The notes under the pieces were generated by a model. The model had not been told where the DNA came from. It was given only the letters and a program-made list of their open reading frames with translations, and did no database searches. This document shows positions 711 to 35,932 of a stretch of 35,932 nt of DNA, piece by piece; positions within the stretch are counted from its first letter, which is position 1, and every line of letters starts with the position of its first letter. Made by a program: the position numbers and the translations under genes. This DNA comes from Candidatus Kaelpia imicola. Lineage in GTDB: Bacteria; Omnitrophota; Gorgyraeia; Kaelpiales; Kaelpiaceae. The stretch lies in the NCBI GenBank assembly GCA_030765505.1, contig JAVCCL010000004.1, positions 1 to 35,932 on the forward strand. The letters run 5' to 3'.

Positions 711-1462
711 ACGATTACAAGGTAAGACTTAAGATTTTTGAAGGTCCGTTGGATCTATTGCTCTATTTGATTAAAAAAAACGAAGTAAGTATCTATGATA
801 TACCTATTGCCGAAATAACAAAGCAGTACTTGGAGTATCTTAAGCTGATGCAGGATTTAGACCTTGATATTGTTGGTGATTTTCTTGTTATGGCCGCGAC
901 GCTGTTATATATAAAATCACGAATGTTATTGCCCCAAGAAGAGGTGGTCTTGGATGAAGAGATACCCGACGATGACCCGAGAGAGGAGCTTGTTAATCGA
1001 TTGATGGAGTATAAGAAATTTAAAGAGGCGGCAGGTCTGCTTAAAGATAAAGAGGAAGAAGGGAGTGAGGTTTTTAAAAGATACCTATCTCGGTCAGATA
1101 TTGATTTAACGCAGAGCGAAGATCCCCCTTACGAAGGTTTTGAAGCCAGCATATTTGATCTAATATCTGCCTTTACAGAGACTCTTAAGAACATACCTAA
1201 GGAGGATTTCAAAGTTGTTTTGGATGAAGAGCATACAGTAGAAGAGAAGATGGAGTTTGTAATCTCTCTCTTGGATCAAAAAGGGGTTATCTATTTCAAT
1301 AATATCTGGGGTAGGATAAGAAGCAGGATTGAGGCAGTAGTTTTCTTTCTATCATTATTGGAGCTGATAAGATTGAAAAAGATTATAATAAGGCAGATTG
1401 GTCTTTTTGGAGAGATCAAGATATTTAAACCACTACCGGTCTTAGATAGCGATGGAAAATAA
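707..1462 (+). CDS. scpA: Segregation and condensation protein A
   Basis: Kleisin subunit of the bacterial SMC-ScpAB condensin, which links the SMC heads and helps compact and segregate the chromosome. The N-terminus carries the kleisin signature FEGPLDLLLYLIKK, followed by an acidic helical middle and a C-terminal winged-helix region around residues 175-245. At 251 aa it has the normal family length. It starts in a 4-nt overlap with trpS and overlaps scpB by 11 nt, the usual arrangement of these two partners. The smc gene is not in the window. Confidence 0.95.
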   Translation: MNDYKVRLKIFEGPLDLLLYLIKKNEVSIYDIPIAEITKQYLEYLKLMQDLDLDIVGDFLVMAATLLYIKSRMLLPQEEVVLDEEIPDDDPREELVNRLMEYKKFKEAAGLLKDKEEEGSEVFKRYLSRSDIDLTQSEDPPYEGFEASIFDLISAFTETLKNIPKEDFKVVLDEEHTVEEKMEFVISLLDQKGVIYFNNIWGRIRSRIEAVVFFLSLLELIRLKKIIIRQIGLFGEIKIFKPLPVLDSDGK

Positions 1463-2003
1463 AGCCGAAACAAAAAGTGTAATTGAGGCACTTCTCTTTG
1501 TTGCTGATAAGCCGCTCTCGATAGAACAGATAAAAGCCGTCATGGAAGCCGACAGATCGGAGATTAAGTCAAATATAGAAGAGTTAAAGAGAGAGTATGA
1601 GTTAAAACATAGTTTCAGAATTCGTGAGGTTGCAGGGGGGTATCAGCTTGTAACAGACCCTATCTATGCTCGTTGGCTTAGAAAATTTTTTCAAGGTGGA
1701 CGTAAGGGAGGACTCTCTAAAGCAGCGCTTGAAACTCTTGCAATAGTTGCTTATAAGCAGCCTATTACAAAACCAGAGATGGAGCAGATTAGAGGGGTTG
1801 ATGTTGATGGGGTTATGAGGAAACTACTTGAGAAAGGTTTGGTTAAAATTATCGGCAGGAAGAGTGTTATCGGTAGGCCGCTAATGTACGCAACTACTAA
1901 AAGGTTCTTGGAGTATTTTGGGTTAAACTCTTTGGAGGAGCTGCCCGATTTAGATAAATTTGTAGAAATGGAGCAAGAAGAGAATGAAGATAATCGAGAT
2001 TAG
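1452..2003 (+). CDS. scpB: Segregation and condensation protein B
   Basis: Winged-helix partner that dimerises and binds ScpA in the SMC condensin complex. The sequence shows the ScpB opening (IEALLFVADKPLSIEQI) and the conserved core with LETLAIVAYKQPITKPEMEQIRG split over residues 95-117, then a GRPLMYATT segment in the second winged helix. At 183 aa it is typical in length and has a short acidic tail. It overlaps scpA by 11 nt and pheA by 20 nt. It ends with TAG, one of five ordinary genes in this window to do so. Confidence 0.95.
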   Translation: MENKAETKSVIEALLFVADKPLSIEQIKAVMEADRSEIKSNIEELKREYELKHSFRIREVAGGYQLVTDPIYARWLRKFFQGGRKGGLSKAALETLAIVAYKQPITKPEMEQIRGVDVDGVMRKLLEKGLVKIIGRKSVIGRPLMYATTKRFLEYFGLNSLEELPDLDKFVEMEQEENEDNRD

Positions 2004-3045
2004 AAAAAAGATTGACGATCTAGACAAAAAAATAGTCAATCTTCTTAACAGGAGAGCAAGGTTAATAACGGACATCGGCAAAATTAAAAGGAAGAATAAT
2101 AAGAGTATCTATGTTCCTGAAAGAGAGAGAGAAGTTTATAAGAAAATTAAAAGCTATAACAAGGGGCCGATACCTGGAGAGTATCTTGAGCACATATATC
2201 GCGAGGTAATGTCTTCTTCTCTGGCGATTGAAAAAGAGATAACCGTAGCCTTCTTAGGTCCTAAAGCCACCTTCACACAACTGGCCGCTCTCAAAAAATT
2301 TGGTTTTTCAGTTAGATATATAGAGTGTAGCGTAATAACTGATATTTTTAATGAAGTAGAGAAAGGCAATGCAGATTTTGGAGTTGTCCCAATCGAGAAT
2401 TCGTTTGAAGGTGCTGTAAATCATACCCTGGATATGTTTATTGACTCAGAATTAAGTATCTGCTCTGAGATATATCTAAAGATAACCCATTATCTTCTGT
2501 CAAAGTCAAAAAGTGTTAAAGAGCTAAAGAAGATATATTCCAAGTCTGAAGTCTTCGGCCAATGTAGGAAGTGGTTAGAGAGCAATGCTCATGGAATTGA
2601 TATTGCTGAGGTCTCTTCTACTGCCAGAGCTGCTCAGATAGCGGCAGGAGAGAAAGGGTCTGGGTGTATAGCCAGTAAAATGGCCAAGGATATTTATGGT
2701 TTAAATATGATTGCATCTTCAATTGAAGATGCTCCTTGTAATGTAACAAGGTTTTTAGTTATAGGGGAGACTCTGGCCCAGCCTACGGGTAGAGATAGAA
2801 CATCCGTAGTCTTTTCTGTTAAAGATAAGATCGGAGCCTTACATGCAATGCTTCTTCCTTTTAAGAGGCATGGTATTAACCTGACAAAGATAGAGTCCCG
2901 TCCTTCGAAGAAGAGAGCCTGGGACTATTATTTCTTTGTTGATTTAGAAGGACATTGCAAAGATGCTAAAGTAGCTAAGGCCTTGGCTGAACTTTCTGAT
3001 GTAACTTTTAGCCTGAAGATATTAGGTTCTTATCCAAGAGCTTAA
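1984..3045 (+). CDS. pheA: Bifunctional chorismate mutase / prephenate dehydratase (P-protein)
   Basis: Converts chorismate to prephenate and prephenate to phenylpyruvate, the committed steps to phenylalanine. Three domains are visible: an AroQ-type chorismate mutase helical domain (residues 1-84, with IRKKIDDLDKKIVNLLNRR), a prephenate dehydratase domain starting at VAFLGPKATFTQ near residue 88 and containing the catalytic NVTRF motif, and a C-terminal ACT domain with GALHAML and ESRP motifs that normally binds phenylalanine for feedback inhibition. The start lies inside scpB with AAGAAGAG just upstream, giving a 20-nt overlap. It is followed by a hisC-like aminotransferase, DAHP synthase and tyrA, an aromatic amino acid block. 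Confidence 0.95.
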   Translation: MKIIEIRKKIDDLDKKIVNLLNRRARLITDIGKIKRKNNKSIYVPEREREVYKKIKSYNKGPIPGEYLEHIYREVMSSSLAIEKEITVAFLGPKATFTQLAALKKFGFSVRYIECSVITDIFNEVEKGNADFGVVPIENSFEGAVNHTLDMFIDSELSICSEIYLKITHYLLSKSKSVKELKKIYSKSEVFGQCRKWLESNAHGIDIAEVSSTARAAQIAAGEKGSGCIASKMAKDIYGLNMIASSIEDAPCNVTRFLVIGETLAQPTGRDRTSVVFSVKDKIGALHAMLLPFKRHGINLTKIESRPSKKRAWDYYFFVDLEGHCKDAKVAKALAELSDVTFSLKILGSYPRA

Positions 3046-3058
3046 GAGATATGTTGAT

Positions 3059-4165
3059 ATGGATGTTGAGAAGCTGATAAAAAATGCAACAAGAGAGGCT
3101 AGGCCTTATAAACCTGGCAAACCTATAGCTGAAGTAAAAAGAGAGCTTGGACTTAAAAAGGTTTATAAATTAGCTTCAAATGAAAACCCTCTGGGGCCTT
3201 CGCCTCAAGCTATAGCTGCTATAAAGAGAGTCTCAGCAGGTATAAATCGCTACCCTGAATCAGGCTGCTTCTATCTTAAAAAACGATTGGCTGAGATTTA
3301 TAACCTTGAACCGGATAATTTTATAGTAGGCAATGGTTCCGATGAACTAATAGCTTTAGCACTAAGGACTTTTTTGAATCCCGGAGATGAAGTCATAGTC
3401 TCTAAACCTACATTTTTGATGTATGAGTTCTACTCTATAATAGAAGGGGCAAATCTAAGGATAGTTCCTATGAGGAATTTTAAATATGATTTAGATGCCA
3501 TCTTAGGTGCTGTAACAGATAAAACGAAGATAATCTTTATTGCAAACCCTGACAATCCTTGCGGAACTTATATTGCAAAAGATGAGCTGGAAAAATTTAT
3601 AGATAGATTACCTGATAGTATTATCCTTTTTCACGACGAAGCTTATTATGAGTTCATGCAGATGGATGACTATCCGGATCTATTTAGGTATATCGAAGAT
3701 AAGCCAGTTATTATGACCAGGACTTTTTCTAAAGTTTACGGTTTGGCCGGTCTAAGAATAGGTTACGGTATAGCGGATAAAAGAATAGTTGAATATATGA
3801 ATAAGGTTAGAGATCCTTTCAACGTTAACTCTTTGGCTCAGGCTGGAGCATTGGCCGCTTTAGACGATAGAGATTTTGTTAAAAAAGTTGTTAAGTTGAC
3901 CAAGGAAAATAGAGAATATCTTTTCAAAGAGTTTGAGCGTTTGGGCTTGAATTATGTCAAATCTTATACTAATTGCATAATTGTTGAGATTGGAGAGAGG
4001 GCTCAGGATCTATCAGGTTATCTCCTAAGAGATGGAGTTATAATAAGAGATATGTCTGCCTGGGGTCTCAATAGATATATAAGGGTGAGTGTTGGGCTCA
4101 AAGTCGAGAACAGAAAGCTTGTTAGGCTTTTAGAGGAATTTATAAAAAAGGAGATTAAAAAATGA
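3059..4165 (+). CDS. hisC: HisC-family aminotransferase (histidinol-phosphate / aromatic)
   Basis: PLP-dependent fold type I aminotransferase of the HisC family, 368 aa. SNENPLGPSP near residue 40, the HDEAYYEF motif (Asp193) and the Schiff-base lysine in TRTFSKVYGLAGLRIGYG (Lys225) are all present. HisC converts imidazole-acetol phosphate and glutamate to histidinol phosphate, but members of this family often also transaminate phenylpyruvate and 4-hydroxyphenylpyruvate. No other histidine gene is in the window, and this gene sits between pheA and the DAHP synthase/tyrA genes. I therefore infer it acts, at least in part, as the final aromatic aminotransferase. The family call is firm; the substrate is not. 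Confidence 0.88.
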   Translation: MDVEKLIKNATREARPYKPGKPIAEVKRELGLKKVYKLASNENPLGPSPQAIAAIKRVSAGINRYPESGCFYLKKRLAEIYNLEPDNFIVGNGSDELIALALRTFLNPGDEVIVSKPTFLMYEFYSIIEGANLRIVPMRNFKYDLDAILGAVTDKTKIIFIANPDNPCGTYIAKDELEKFIDRLPDSIILFHDEAYYEFMQMDDYPDLFRYIEDKPVIMTRTFSKVYGLAGLRIGYGIADKRIVEYMNKVRDPFNVNSLAQAGALAALDDRDFVKKVVKLTKENREYLFKEFERLGLNYVKSYTNCIIVEIGERAQDLSGYLLRDGVIIRDMSAWGLNRYIRVSVGLKVENRKLVRLLEEFIKKEIKK

Positions 4166-30659: not shown

Positions 30660-30733
30660 GGCGGTGTAGCTCAGTTGGTTAGAGCATACGGCTCATACCC
30701 GTATTGTCAGTGGTTCGAGTCCACTCACCGCTA
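30660..30733 (+). tRNA. tRNA-Met (anticodon CAT)
   Basis: A 74-nt cloverleaf can be drawn by hand. The acceptor stem GGCGGTG pairs with CACCGCT (one G-U at the first pair), the D arm is CTCAGTTGGTTAGAG, the anticodon stem TACGG/CCGTA carries the loop CTCATAC (anticodon CAT), and the T arm AGTGG-TTCGAGT-CCACT is followed by discriminator A. CCA is not encoded. The body closely resembles elongator tRNA-Met of other bacteria; a lysidine-modified tRNA-Ile2 is the alternative for a CAT anticodon. The recombinase gene starts about 150 bp downstream. Confidence 0.93.
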
Positions 30734-30879
30734 TAACTCTTTCATTACGAACAGGTTAGAGCTATAGAGTTGATGTAAGTTGTTGAATTATATGCACTAA
30801 TCGACCAAACTGCCGATTCTTGAGGTTAGCCTGAAAAACCCCACTAACTACTAGTGCTTTCCCGTATAGTCTAAATATT

Positions 30880-31782
30880 ATGAAGATTTCAATCTTATTT
30901 GAGGAGTTCATTGCTTTTGCGACTTTAGAAAGATGCTTAGAACCTACTACTATTGAATGGTATAAAAGAAGCCTTGCACCGCTGCTTAAGTACTTACGTT
31001 ATAAGATGCTTAAGGCAGACTTGGAGGTTTTAACCACAGAGACTCTTAGGGGCTTTTTTGTAAGCCATAGACTAAACGGCAACGCACCTAGAACAATACT
31101 TAATATTATGCAGGGAATTAAGTCGTTTTGTAGCTTTTTAGTAAAGAGAGGTTATCTCAAGGAGAACCCTTGCAATAGCCTTGAAAAGCCCAAGTTAGCC
31201 CGTAGGTTGCCTGATTTCCTAGATGAGGGGGAAGCTAAGGAGTTGTTACAAACTTGCATTAGCTTAAAGCGTAGTTATAAATCAAAGTGGTATAGAGATG
31301 TTTCTATTATTAGTATGTTTCTATTAACTGGTATAAGAAAGAGAGAGTTGCTTAATTTAAAGTTGAAGGATGTAAACTTGGATAGAGGATATATATGTGT
31401 TACAGCTAAGAACAAAGAGAGGATTGTGCCTTTAAATGATACTGTAAAAGGTTTTTTGGAAGACTACTTAAAAGTAAGGCCCAAAAGGAAAAATATCGAT
31501 TACTTATTTTTATCTACCAACAGAAAGAACTCTCCTTTAACTCAACAAGGATTGTACAATCTATTTGATGAGCTAAAGAAAAAAGTTGGATTTAAAAAGA
31601 ATGTTACTCCTCAAGTCTTGAGGCATACTTTCTGCACTTTAATGTTAAGAAATGGAGTAAACTTAAGAGATATTCAATTATTAGCAGGACATTCTGACAT
31701 ATCTACTACGGCTAGATTTTATTTAGGATGCGATGATAAACAGTTAAAAAAGGCGGTTGAAAAGCATCCATTGAATATCTAA
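30880..31782 (+). CDS. Tyrosine recombinase / site-specific integrase (XerC/D-like)
   Basis: A 300-aa recombinase with an N-terminal SAM-like core-binding domain (about residues 1-88) and a C-terminal catalytic domain. Arg153 (TGIRKREL), Lys177 (TAKNKER), Arg248 (TPQVLRHTF), His271 (AGHSDISTT) and Tyr281 (ARFYL) fit the active site. The first residue of the HxxR box is Gln245 instead of His. It has no N-terminal arm-binding domain. There is no Shine-Dalgarno; a TATAGT at 30865 would place transcription nearly at the ATG. It lies directly after tRNA-Met in the same direction, as in elements that integrate at tRNA genes, and a direct repeat begins at its stop. Confidence 0.92.
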   Translation: MKISILFEEFIAFATLERCLEPTTIEWYKRSLAPLLKYLRYKMLKADLEVLTTETLRGFFVSHRLNGNAPRTILNIMQGIKSFCSFLVKRGYLKENPCNSLEKPKLARRLPDFLDEGEAKELLQTCISLKRSYKSKWYRDVSIISMFLLTGIRKRELLNLKLKDVNLDRGYICVTAKNKERIVPLNDTVKGFLEDYLKVRPKRKNIDYLFLSTNRKNSPLTQQGLYNLFDELKKKVGFKKNVTPQVLRHTFCTLMLRNGVNLRDIQLLAGHSDISTTARFYLGCDDKQLKKAVEKHPLNI

Positions 31783-31880
31783 GGGGTTTAAAACAGTACA
31801 CTATTAAAACATTCTCTATGTAGTAGTGATGTGCTGTTAAGTTTCTATTGTTCGAATAATCAATACATAGTTTGTTAAAT
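31783..31880 (+). repeat. Direct repeat copy A, after the integrase
   Basis: Begins one base after the integrase stop with GGGGTTTAAAACAGTACAC and includes ATTCTCTATG, TAGTAGTG and TGTTAAGTTTCTATTGTT. It aligns over about 98 bp to copy C at 34134, apart from a 12-bp gap. CTATGTA and TACATAG within it form a distant inverted repeat. The end of the copy runs into the promoter of the next gene. Confidence 0.75.
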
Positions 31881-31900
31881 TGTTTAATATGTGGTATAAA
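31872..31900 (+). promoter_or_regulatory. Probable promoter of the HExxH protein gene
   Basis: TTGTTA (31872-31877), 17-bp spacer, TATAAA (31895-31900). The expected start near 31907 gives a leader of about 29 nt before the ATG at 31936, without a strong Shine-Dalgarno. Its -35 lies in the end of repeat copy A. Confidence 0.45.
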
Positions 31901-31935
31901 TTGACCAAAGAGCAAATTAAAGAGTTTCTATATTA

Positions 31936-33513
31936 ATGAAAGTGAAATACAAAATTTTATTAATTATATCAGGGTTATTATTCTCGATGCCCTGTTATGC
32001 TTTTTCATTCTTAGGAGAGAGTGTTTTTGATGGAAGTCAAGATTCCTTGCAAGGTTCTTCATTTAGTTATGAATATTTTATTGATAATAATAGTAGAGTA
32101 ATTATTGGTGAGACAGTTGAAGGGGATGGCTCAGTCGTAGAGGCGCCAATTATTTTAAATCAGGATTATAATGGACAGGATTATAATGGATATGAATCTA
32201 CAATAAACAAAACTGCCAGACCTTTAAATGAAAAAGAAATTTTGTATTTAGAGAGTATAATTACTGATTTTAAATTAGAAGAACTTCGAAGTTATAATAT
32301 AAGGGTTTTTAAGCCGAATGAAGAATCTTATGACGAGGAACAAGTTGGTGCAGCTTTCGTAGAAGCAAACACCATTGTTATTAATGATTCGTTATTTAAT
32401 AATAATACGTTGTTAGGTAAAATTGCATTTGTTAAAATTATTGTTCATGAGTTAACTCATATAAAAGATTATCAGAAATCTCCAGAAGTTTTTTTGCAAA
32501 GACAGGATTTATACTATAAAGTGCTTGTTTCAATTGATTATTCTGAAGATTTTTCGTTTGTAGAATTTAAGGATAATTTAAATAATTTTGTAAGAGCATG
32601 GGTTGAGGTAGAAGTATCAGCAGAAGCGGAAGCAATTGAATTTATTTCAGATTATATTAATGAAAAAAACATAGATTTGCTTAAAGAAGTTAATAATTCA
32701 CAAAGGCGAATAGGTGAAGTAAGAAAAGACGGGCTTGGTAATACTAATTTATCGGAAAATCTGTTTGAAGACAATCGGAGCTGTATTGAAACTTTATATG
32801 GCGTTAATGGTTTTACAGATATTCAAGGAAATGTTGATAAAGTAAAATTATTTTGGGGTATGTTTTTTGGCCATCTAAATACATATCTTCCTTCAGTTGT
32901 TGAACAAAGGCTATTATTGGCTCAGGAAGAAATAGGATTAATAGAAAAAGATGAAGGGGGTAATTGGGTTATAGGCATAGATAATGTCGGTAAAGTGTCT
33001 ATCGGTAATTTATTAAAACCCGATATATATAATACTCCAGAGGTAAAACTATTATTTGAGAATATTTTTGGATTACCAATTTCTGATTTACAAGGAGAGT
33101 TAGTAGATAGCGGGGGTGTTGACACAGGTACATTAACTATTTATCCTCATGTTTTTACAGACATAGAAAAATCACCAGCTATTTGGTTGCAGTACTATAG
33201 TGATAATACCATAGATATTAATTATGATTTTTCAAATGGTGACCGTTGGCTTGGAATTATTATGGATTTAAACCATCCATCATATTTGACTCAACATGAT
33301 AAGCTTAAATTGAGTTTTAAAGGAGACCCTGATAAATTTGAATTTAAAGTTAACGGAGAATTAATAGATATTATTAAAACTTTAGATGGTGAGTATTATT
33401 TCCAAATTGATGAGTTAATTTTTAAAATAGAGATTGCTATTAACAGAAATTACATTCAAGATGATAGTCAAGAAGGTTCATTGAAAATTAATTTTTTACC
33501 TCTAAATAATTAA
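31936..33513 (+). CDS. Secreted putative zinc metallopeptidase (HExxH), unknown family
   Basis: A 525-aa protein with a Sec signal peptide (MKVKYKILLIISGLLFSMPC, likely cleavage after CYA at residue 22). HELTH at residues 171-175 is a zincin HExxH motif, with the preceding NTIVINDSLF and GKIAFVKIIV helix typical of such sites. Glu226, Glu230 or Glu232 in VEVEVSAEAEAIEF could supply the third zinc ligand, as in gluzincins. The remaining 290 residues are not recognised; the last 130 or so look beta-rich. The gene is very AT-rich compared with the main run and is bounded by copies of a direct repeat, consistent with horizontal acquisition. Its target is unknown. Confidence 0.8.
   Translation: MKVKYKILLIISGLLFSMPCYAFSFLGESVFDGSQDSLQGSSFSYEYFIDNNSRVIIGETVEGDGSVVEAPIILNQDYNGQDYNGYESTINKTARPLNEKEILYLESIITDFKLEELRSYNIRVFKPNEESYDEEQVGAAFVEANTIVINDSLFNNNTLLGKIAFVKIIVHELTHIKDYQKSPEVFLQRQDLYYKVLVSIDYSEDFSFVEFKDNLNNFVRAWVEVEVSAEAEAIEFISDYINEKNIDLLKEVNNSQRRIGEVRKDGLGNTNLSENLFEDNRSCIETLYGVNGFTDIQGNVDKVKLFWGMFFGHLNTYLPSVVEQRLLLAQEEIGLIEKDEGGNWVIGIDNVGKVSIGNLLKPDIYNTPEVKLLFENIFGLPISDLQGELVDSGGVDTGTLTIYPHVFTDIEKSPAIWLQYYSDNTIDINYDFSNGDRWLGIIMDLNHPSYLTQHDKLKLSFKGDPDKFEFKVNGELIDIIKTLDGEYYFQIDELIFKIEIAINRNYIQDDSQEGSLKINFLPLNN
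32161..32190 (+). repeat. 15-bp exact tandem duplication in the HExxH gene
   Basis: CAGGATTATAATGGA occurs twice back to back, giving QDYNGQDYNG in the protein between the signal peptide and the metallopeptidase region. It keeps the frame and looks like a recent slippage event. Confidence 0.9.
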
Positions 33514-34010: not shown

Positions 34011-34039
34011 GGGGTTTTAAACAGTACAATATTTAAAGA
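34011..34039 (+). repeat. Direct repeat copy B (partial)
   Basis: GGGGTTTTAAACAGTACAAT and the following ATTTAAAGA match the first 29 bp of copies A and C; the rest of the repeat is missing. It lies 123 bp before copy C in the same orientation. Confidence 0.65.
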
Positions 34040-34120: not shown

Positions 34121-34133
34121 CAGATGACTGTAG

Positions 34134-34240
34134 GGGGTTTAAAAATAGCACAATATTGAAGTATTCTCTATGCTATACCACCATAGTAGTGTGTGTGTTG
34201 TTAAATTTCTATTGTTTGGAATTAAACACCTAGTTAAACC
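34134..34240 (+). repeat. Direct repeat copy C, before the H1-like gene cluster
   Basis: GGGGTTTAAAAATAGCAC, ATTCTCTATG, TAGTAGTG, and TGTTAAATTTCTATTGTT align in order with copy A at 31783; copy C has a 12-bp insert that forms the small hairpin CTATG...CATAG. Its end abuts the promoter at 34241, as copy A abuts the promoter at 31872. Confidence 0.75.
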
Positions 34241-34270
34241 TTGACTACTTATAATAAATAGGATTATTAT
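34241..34270 (+). promoter_or_regulatory. Promoter ahead of the H1-like gene cluster
   Basis: TTGACT (34241-34246), 18-bp spacer, TATTAT (34265-34270). Transcription would start near 34277, giving a leader of about 90 nt that contains the terminator-like hairpin at 34321 before the H1-like start. Confidence 0.55.
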
Positions 34271-34320
34271 GTGTTATCATGCCACAATGTAGTGGATATA
34301 TAATTTGGTGATTTAATATA

Positions 34321-34348
34321 GGCAACTCTAGAGAGGGTTGTCTTTTTT
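34321..34348 (+). terminator. Rho-independent terminator/attenuator in the leader of the H1-like gene
   Basis: GGCAACTCT pairs with GAGGGTTGTC-derived bases over nine pairs (two G-U) around the loop AGAG, and six Ts follow directly. It lies only 19 nt before the ATG at 34368 and five bases before its Shine-Dalgarno. It would therefore either end a short RNA of about 70 nt from the promoter at 34241 or act as an attenuator. Confidence 0.65.
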
Positions 34349-34367
34349 ATTTTAAAGGAGGTGAATC

Positions 34368-34559
34368 ATGGCAGTAAAGAAGAAAGCAGCAAAGAAGAAA
34401 GCAGCTCCGAAGAAAAAGGCTGCAGTGAAGAAAGTTGTAAAGAAGAAAGCAGCTCTGAAGAAAAAGGTTGCAGTGAAGAAAGTTGTAAAGAAGAAAGCAG
34501 CTCTGAAGAAAAAGGTTGCTGGTGGTCCAAGAGGACCAAGGCCTCCTAGAAGAAAATAA
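34368..34559 (+). CDS. Histone H1-like lysine-rich basic protein
   Basis: A 63-aa peptide made almost only of Lys, Ala and Val, with KKKAA and KKVVKKKAALKKK repeats, closed by a Gly/Pro/Arg tail (GGPRGPRPPRRK). It resembles the C-terminal tails of eukaryotic H1 and chlamydial Hc1/Hc2-type proteins, so DNA or RNA binding is likely, but low-complexity sequence alone does not prove a function. AAAGGAGGTGAATC before the ATG is a very strong Shine-Dalgarno and decides this frame. Two 48-nt tandem units encode residues 18-33 and 34-49. It is first in a cluster with the membrane and HEPN genes. Confidence 0.82.
   Translation: MAVKKKAAKKKAAPKKKAAVKKVVKKKAALKKKVAVKKVVKKKAALKKKVAGGPRGPRPPRRK
34419..34514 (+). 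repeat. Two 48-nt tandem units in the H1-like gene
   Basis: Units at 34419-34466 and 34467-34514 differ by one base near the start (GCTGCA versus GTTGCA) and each encodes 16 residues, (A/V)AVKKVVKKKAALKKK. Near identity at the DNA level suggests recent expansion, and copy number may vary between strains. Confidence 0.9.
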
Positions 34560-34580
34560 ATTTAATATAAATATGTTGAA

Positions 34581-34955
34581 ATGGATTTTAAAGAAATATT
34601 TAATATTTATAGAGAATTAAATTCTAGTGTAAGGCAAAAGATTTCAGCTCTTTCTTTAGTCGTGATGGCTGCTATATTTGTGTTAATAGACAAGGAGCTA
34701 GGGGTCAAAGATTCTTTTGTTCTTTATAAGCTTTCTTTTCTTTGTTTTGTATTTTCTTTGTTTTTTGAAATTATAAATGGGCTTTGGGCGAGTGTTCATT
34801 ATGCTAAATATATTGATGGTAAAATAGAAAGTTTAGATTTTAGAAAGAGTCGATGGGGTGTATGGACTGAAAAAGCGTTTTGGGCCATGTGCGTTTGTTT
34901 CCTTATTGGTGGGGTATTGTTTACAATTAGTATCTTTAAATTATCTCTTCCTTAA
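34581..34955 (+). CDS. Three-helix membrane protein of unknown function
   Basis: I do not recognise this 124-aa protein. It has three hydrophobic segments (about residues 20-37, 47-68 and 97-117) separated by short charged loops, with a KYIDGKIESLDFRKSRWG loop between helices 2 and 3. It follows the H1-like gene by 21 nt and precedes the HEPN gene by 8 nt on the same strand, so the last two are very probably co-transcribed. There is no Shine-Dalgarno before the ATG. The gene is far more AT-rich than the housekeeping run. Confidence 0.75.
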   Translation: MDFKEIFNIYRELNSSVRQKISALSLVVMAAIFVLIDKELGVKDSFVLYKLSFLCFVFSLFFEIINGLWASVHYAKYIDGKIESLDFRKSRWGVWTEKAFWAMCVCFLIGGVLFTISIFKLSLP

Positions 34956-34963
34956 AAAATAAA

Positions 34964-35605
34964 ATGAAAACTTTAGATGAAAAAAATATAGAATTATCGA
35001 AAATGCTTTTTTCACTTAAACATAGTATTGATTTAGAAAAGTTATTTGGATTAAATGCAGATATTATAAACAAAGTTGGAGTTGGGAAGAAGTTTTTTGT
35101 TCATATTCGAATGATTTTAAAGGAATCTTTTGTTATGAGTATATATAAAATTTTTGAGAAAGAAAAAACATATTCTTTGAACTCTATTCCTGCAATACTA
35201 GAATTAATTAAATCTAAAGAGTTAAATTGTAAGTATCCTGACTATGTAGATGAGTTTATATCTAAATATGAAAATGGCAAGAAAGGGACTAATTACATTG
35301 AAGCACTTGAAGCTATTTATGAAAGTTTTTATTCAAAACATCAGGCTTCTTTTGAGAGATATGATTATGCCAGAGATAAAGTAGTTGCTCATTCTGAATA
35401 TAAAGCTCAGAGAGATTTATTGCCTAGTCATGCAGTCATGAAAGAAGTATTATTATTTGGTGTCGATTTTAATCGTATGATATCCGAAGCATTTCTTGGT
35501 GTAGGGCCGCATCCAATAGCTAGCGATATGCAAGTGTCTTCAAGCCTATGTAGATTATTAGAAGAGCTAGGTTATAAGAATATAAAAAAGGAATTTGATA
35601 AATAA
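34964..35605 (+). CDS. AbiU2-like HEPN-domain protein (putative)
   Basis: A mostly helical 213-aa protein. The segment ARDKVVAHSEYK (Arg137 to His143) fits the Rx4-6H motif of HEPN ribonucleases, and the upstream pattern KFFVHIRMILKESFVMSIYK then SLNSIPAILELI is like the AbiU2 family, in which a helix pair precedes the catalytic RNK..AH motif. AbiU2-type HEPN proteins occur in abortive-infection and toxin-antitoxin loci. No MNT nucleotidyltransferase antitoxin is nearby; the partner here is a small membrane protein 8 nt upstream. The assignment is by eye and could be wrong. No Shine-Dalgarno is seen. Confidence 0.7.
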   Translation: MKTLDEKNIELSKMLFSLKHSIDLEKLFGLNADIINKVGVGKKFFVHIRMILKESFVMSIYKIFEKEKTYSLNSIPAILELIKSKELNCKYPDYVDEFISKYENGKKGTNYIEALEAIYESFYSKHQASFERYDYARDKVVAHSEYKAQRDLLPSHAVMKEVLLFGVDFNRMISEAFLGVGPHPIASDMQVSSSLCRLLEELGYKNIKKEFDK

Positions 35606-35657: not shown

Positions 35658-35777
35658 AAAATGATTAAGAACGGAAATAATGTTAAAGATATAATGTTTT
35701 ATTTATGCAGGGTAAATTTTGTACTCAAAGAATTTAAAGAAAGAGTATGCTGATTTAATTATAGGAGATGATATTGT

Positions 35778-35924
35778 ATGTTTAGGGTGTCTTTAGTTTT
35801 GAATTTGCCTGTCGTTGATACGCGACGATGTTACCCAAATGTTGAGAGCCTTTCACTTAGCCATTGTATCACTGGAAACTTTGGTAATGTGATGATAGTA
35901 GAATCTGCTATCGCAAAAGCTTAG
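35778..35924 (+). CDS. Possible small or 5'-fragment ORF, 48 aa
   Basis: ATG at 35778 follows AGGAG by 11 bases and reads MFRVSLVLNLPVVDTRRCYP and on to SAIAKA before a TAG at 35922. The composition looks protein-like (SLSHCITGNFGNVMIVESAI is not low complexity), and the GN-G-N pattern loosely recalls the start of polysaccharide pyruvyl transferases. Only eight bases remain after the stop, so whether this is a complete peptide or a broken longer gene cannot be judged. Confidence 0.3.
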   Translation: MFRVSLVLNLPVVDTRRCYPNVESLSLSHCITGNFGNVMIVESAIAKA

Positions 35925-35932
35925 AATTATAC

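Follow-up and report, generated by a model that had tools for sequence, protein, structure and literature searches.

Three open reading frames of the same strand, coding for 63, 124 and 213 aa and separated by gaps of 21 and 8 nt, lie within positions 34241-35605 of the window, i.e. of the whole stretch of 35,932 nucleotides from Candidatus Kaelpia imicola that was analysed. The small tandem genes of the original prediction were all recovered, at 34368-34559, 34581-34955 and 34964-35605, and their spacing was as described there. In 1000 dinucleotide shuffles of 34241-35605, a longest ORF of at least 213 aa did not occur once, nor did a second ORF of at least 124 aa (0/1000; maximum 137, mean 46). 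The three genes are real. PDB profile searches gave chance matches only. The genes reside in an integrative element of about 9.5 kb that has tRNA-Met as its insertion site, is flanked by direct repeats of 45 bp and extends past the window end. The features are as follows:

30660..30733, plus strand: tRNA-Met (CAT), the target of integration; the left repeat is its 3' part (ARAGORN, Rfam)
30690..30734, plus strand: 45-bp attachment repeat on the left side; its second copy (98%) is at 40168-40212 of the contig
30880..31782, plus strand: XerC/D-like tyrosine recombinase, the element integrase (Pfam Phage_integrase 7.3e-36, PHROG integrase 3e-54)
31936..33513, plus strand: 525-aa cargo protein with signal-peptide-like start, secreted-type
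34279..34350, plus strand: leader comprising two hairpins, of which the second is terminator-like; a copy with 83% identity is at contig C1, position 77194
34368..34559, plus strand: H1-like Lys/Ala-rich peptide of 63 aa, a diverged copy whose core-gene counterpart is on contig C18
34581..34955, plus strand: three-helix membrane protein, 124 aa (hydropathy and AF2 single-sequence model)
34964..35605, plus strand: AbiU2-family HEPN protein, 213 aa, predicted RNase (Pfam PF18734)
35776..~35952, plus strand, cut by the window at 35932: candidate retron ncRNA (msr-msd), folding z -4.16
35968-37710 of the contig: RT-Toprim reverse transcriptase, 580 aa, of the type I-C (Ec67/Eco2) kind

A tyrosine recombinase gene beside a tRNA gene and direct repeats of the tRNA 3' end are the hallmarks of tRNA-targeting elements, and both are found here. 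Within the element, the integrase and the 525-aa protein are accompanied by the three genes and the retron, and there are also genes for a P-loop protein and for an HTH protein. Further copies of the attachment repeat occur on the same contig: 41201-41226 is an exact copy of 26 bp, and 41795-41839 is degenerate. G+C content of the island is 31.5% versus 37-38% on either flank, in agreement with the AT-rich segment noticed originally. The three genes had also been placed behind an integrase; the integrase at 30880-31782 does lie upstream, but the 525-aa ORF (31936-33513) intervenes. No close copy of the integrase was found in 197 relatives, and the 525-aa protein was matched by nothing in Pfam or PADLOC and by nothing informative in PHROG. 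The conserved core genes to the right of the element, on the tilS/ftsH/folP side, are present, and the element genes absent, in the fetched stretches of a congener and of another genus of the family, the congener's contigs breaking at the repeat so that its site is only partly resolved. The element is a recent-looking insertion and not core sequence. We are nearly certain of the identity of both the integrative element and the retron.

Repeats of the tRNA-Met 3' end are present in three genomes of the family: on the contig of the window (C4; 30690-30734, 40168, 41201 and 41795) and, on the minus strand, in loci L044 (10688, 9764, 8644 and 7192) and L043 (9351 and 8208). Between them lie mostly single-gene modules, often coding for signal-peptide proteins. 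One such repeat-flanked module, with a gene for a 206-aa protein, shares 90% DNA identity with another genus, where the order is different. The arrangement at tRNA-Met resembles an array of cassettes anchored at the tRNA, or else the product of elements accreting repeatedly. The P-loop protein of the element (417 aa, C4 38455-39708, equal to L017 8456-9709) belongs to no confident family; it could serve element maintenance or be the product of a further defence gene.

The 213-aa protein was originally predicted to be AbiU2-like and to carry a HEPN-type RDKVVAH motif, and both predictions hold. It matches Pfam HEPN_AbiU2 (PF18734) with an E-value of 1.7e-9 and 37.9 bits, the curated cut-off being 26.8. 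A held-out model, built from 12 family members with the 213-aa protein excluded, finds it in the six-frame translation (E 2.5e-9), and hhalign of its residues 13-147 with the 12 family members gives a probability of 82% (E 1e-5). The motif is intact and corresponds to R137-x5-H143, in keeping with the R-x(4-6)-H catalytic pattern; its arginine and histidine are, apart from the start, the sole invariant positions of a nine-member family alignment. Identity to the family members of the phylum is only 15-21%. The single-sequence AF2 model (pLDDT 43) is too poor to use, and no PADLOC model covers the protein. No sequence relatives were retrieved from 59 close relatives, 384 phylum genomes, plasmids, phages or IMG/VR, nor from GTDB contigs, where scans with short exact peptides make a weak test. 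The family itself matches in 18 of the 384 phylum genomes, over the cut-off in 17, and such sparse and scattered occurrence would resemble that of usual mobile toxins. Judged by its family, the protein is very likely an RNase, and it probably serves phage defence or works as a toxin. To our knowledge, the activity of AbiU2 proteins is predicted and has been little tested.

Hydropathy marks three segments of the 124-aa protein as hydrophobic, namely residues 16-44, 40-73 and 96-124, as expected of the three-helix membrane protein that had been proposed. The single-sequence AF2 model, of modest confidence (pLDDT 69), places helices at residues 3-40, 45-78 and 91-122. The protein has no recognisable relatives in the 384 phylum genomes, plasmids, phages or IMG/VR, and none stands near the 18 fetched loci that match the AbiU2 profile. 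Some fragments were considered as relatives and rejected, with E-values of 8e-4 or worse, most of them containing stops or lying inside much longer frames. Likewise rejected was the notion that AbiU2-type HEPN genes always stand beside membrane genes: their neighbours are mixed, and membrane genes are no more frequent among them than expected of a common gene class, according to an estimate with no formal control. No ribosome-binding site is evident upstream of the membrane or the HEPN gene. This shared feature, together with their tight spacing, suggests that the membrane protein might be the partner of the HEPN protein, an assignment which we regard as tentative. Its proposed role as regulator or effector is drawn from adjacency. 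HEPN domains combined with membrane segments have been described (PMC3710099), and by analogy a membrane regulator of the HEPN protein would be plausible. A search for homologous pairs of the two genes, suggested originally as a check, revealed no pair; neither gene has recognisable homologues, so confirmation by this route is not possible.

The first of the three genes had been taken as the head of a functional cluster. Its start region and coding sequence are 78% identical over 143 bp to a core gene on contig C18, and this counterpart has no membrane or HEPN gene downstream, so that the H1-like peptide is probably a captured copy and probably outside the HEPN module. HC2/H1-like models match the peptide weakly only, below curated cut-offs (PF07382, 15.8 bits versus 40; NF038053, 22 versus 80). 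We consider it likely that the peptide is a passenger or bystander and not part of the HEPN module. The single promoter assigned to the cluster fared no better. The best match, TTGACT-18-TATTAT at 34241-34270, is one of 14, shuffled sequences giving 11.7 +/- 3.2, so the promoter does not rise above chance expectation. This match is separated from the first gene by a hairpin that resembles a terminator and has a T-run (34320-34343, z -4.15). The C1 copy (83%) of the surrounding leader, 34279-34350, precedes a different ORF, and the leader is thus a repeated element of the genome that is not specific to the cluster.

Several repeats were observed in the intergenic regions. The two-hairpin leader (window 34279-34350; L018 11195-11269; L007 1076-1130, where the copy is limited to the second hairpin plus the start region) recurs ahead of unrelated ORFs and matches no Rfam family; its closest copy, at the end of a contig, follows genes for tRNA-Arg and tRNA-His. 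Another intergenic repeat, 72-89% identical, is found after the integrase gene (31783-31872) and before the H1-like gene (34011-34037 and 34131-34235). A 33-bp piece, 31869-31901, recurs on contig C1 (L018 9160-9192) ahead of a secreted peptidase-like gene.

Downstream of the HEPN gene, the 580-aa protein matches the PADLOC model RT-Toprim_I-C with 2.8e-158 over residues 25-578, and the Ec67/Eco2 protein in PDB with 7e-66. Its identity to a Herpetosiphon plasmid protein is 43% over 98%, and to Ec67 proteins of E. coli and rhizobia about 40% or less. The reverse transcriptase motifs NARNH106 (NAxxH), YADD198 and VTG260 are intact, and so are Toprim residues E369/D373, D430/D432 (DxD) and S474/E476. 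Eco2 depends on the corresponding Toprim residues for its activity against phages, and on E374/D378 for its RNase activity (PMC12405507). The candidate ncRNA has a closing stem formed by a1 (35776-35792) and, beyond the window, a2 (35936-35952), and it contains a single msr hairpin. A hairpin GTCGTTGAT..CGCGAC and the stretch AAAAGCTT are found at corresponding places before the Herpetosiphon reverse transcriptase gene as well, and a variant of this hairpin also precedes a cyanobacterial one. No known riboswitch or retron RNA of Rfam was matched. A pattern search of GTDB contigs for the reverse transcriptase retrieved nothing, yet tblastn in plasmids gave 41 records. In a relative of the same class (L054), a retron reverse transcriptase fused to a protease-like domain is encoded at 1423-3063 with an integrase upstream. 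The ORF that comes next, at 3199-3753 (184 aa), contains the motif RRAFAH and may code for a HEPN protein, without Pfam match.

These components were compared with known systems. With AbiU2 (HEPN_AbiU2, PF18734), the 213-aa protein shares a domain match above the cut-off, the R-x5-H motif and the form of a small stand-alone protein. On the contrary, the published neighbours of AbiU2, a Sel1-repeat gene and an R-M operon (PMC3710099), are not recognised in the element, none of whose genes has a Sel1-repeat or R-M match in Pfam or PADLOC. Such partners are not a strict criterion for AbiU2, the neighbours of the family being variable. The retron resembles type I-C retron Ec67/Eco2 in its full-length RT-Toprim protein, catalytic motifs and upstream ncRNA with a1/a2 stem and msr hairpin, and differs in that membrane and HEPN genes stand upstream. 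With type IX retron Kva2 the locus has in common a HEPN gene in operon with ncRNA and reverse transcriptase. Kva2, however, encodes a winged-helix protein, lacks the Toprim fusion and has a HEPN protein without the canonical motif (PMC13405049), whereas no winged-helix gene was recognised here and the reverse transcriptase is fused to Toprim. Finally, a small membrane protein beside a HEPN RNase is also found in Cas13b systems with Csx27 or Csx28, which modulate the HEPN RNase activity of Cas13b (PMC8209922). There is no CRISPR or Cas13 here, and the likeness is one of layout only.

Taken together, we propose, with a probability of about 50%, that the cargo of the element includes a complete type I-C retron and, just ahead of it, an Abi-type module, the latter composed of the AbiU2-family HEPN RNase and probably the membrane protein. 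Two defence units would then share one element. Against this proposal count the absence of relatives of the membrane protein, the missing ribosome-binding sites of both genes and the lack of a PADLOC model for the HEPN protein. The retron would act as is known for Eco2, in which the Toprim RNase is held inactive until phage activity perturbs the msDNA complex (PMC12405507). From what is known of its family, the HEPN protein probably dimerises and cuts RNA, probably tRNA or mRNA, and this activity would stop growth once phage infection releases the protein. The membrane protein, to judge by its adjacency, might anchor, restrain or trigger it, and the H1-like peptide would be a duplicated host gene riding along. 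The presence of a type I-C retron in the same element supports the defence reading better than the sequence window allowed, and in this respect the original prediction gains; the joint function that it foresaw is, for the membrane and HEPN proteins, tentative. The pairing of the membrane protein with HEPN protein and retron is seen only here, each recognisable kind being already known.

The HEPN gene could instead be a solitary toxin or Abi gene, with the membrane protein as an unrelated neighbour. Across the phylum, the neighbours of AbiU2-family genes vary and include no constant membrane partner, and the membrane protein is without relatives, both of which would fit. Spacing of 8 nt and the common lack of a ribosome-binding site are, however, features consistent with coupled translation of the two genes, and we find this explanation unlikely.

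Less probable still is a composite retron, in which the membrane protein and the HEPN RNase would belong to the retron and one complex of ncRNA and reverse transcriptase would control both Toprim and HEPN. In its favour, the HEPN gene ends 170 nt ahead of the ncRNA, the two have the same orientation and no terminator-like site intervenes, such sites being absent all the way from the H1-like gene to the reverse transcriptase gene. A precedent is type IX, where HEPN, WH, ncRNA and reverse transcriptase form one operon with a sequestered HEPN tRNase; the type IX HEPN protein lacks the canonical motif, however, which is present here (PMC13405049). Type I-C retrons are moreover complete as ncRNA and RT-Toprim (PMC12405507), and neither an AbiU2-type HEPN gene nor a relative of the membrane protein occurs in any of 20 retron-RT loci, of which 5 come from the phylum and 15 from plasmids, the latter being for the most part Ec67-like by annotation or alignment. 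That a single msDNA sensor would command two RNases, the fused Toprim and an AbiU2-type HEPN held by the membrane protein, we regard as a little more doubtful again. H1-like repeats are generic, and with the C18 counterpart of the peptide (78% over 143 bp) standing without membrane and HEPN genes, the earlier view of a three-gene unit having the peptide as its nucleic-acid-binding component is very improbable, despite the common strand, the 21-nt gap and the lack of terminator-like sites between the genes.

If the cargo is indeed a type I-C retron with an Abi-type module, its interest lies in the joint occurrence of such a retron and an AbiU2-type HEPN gene in a tRNA-borne element of a small-genome lineage. 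With its motif intact, the HEPN protein can be tested here together with a definite neighbour, and the locus represents a clean test case of whether a neighbouring HEPN RNase can couple to a retron outside type IX.
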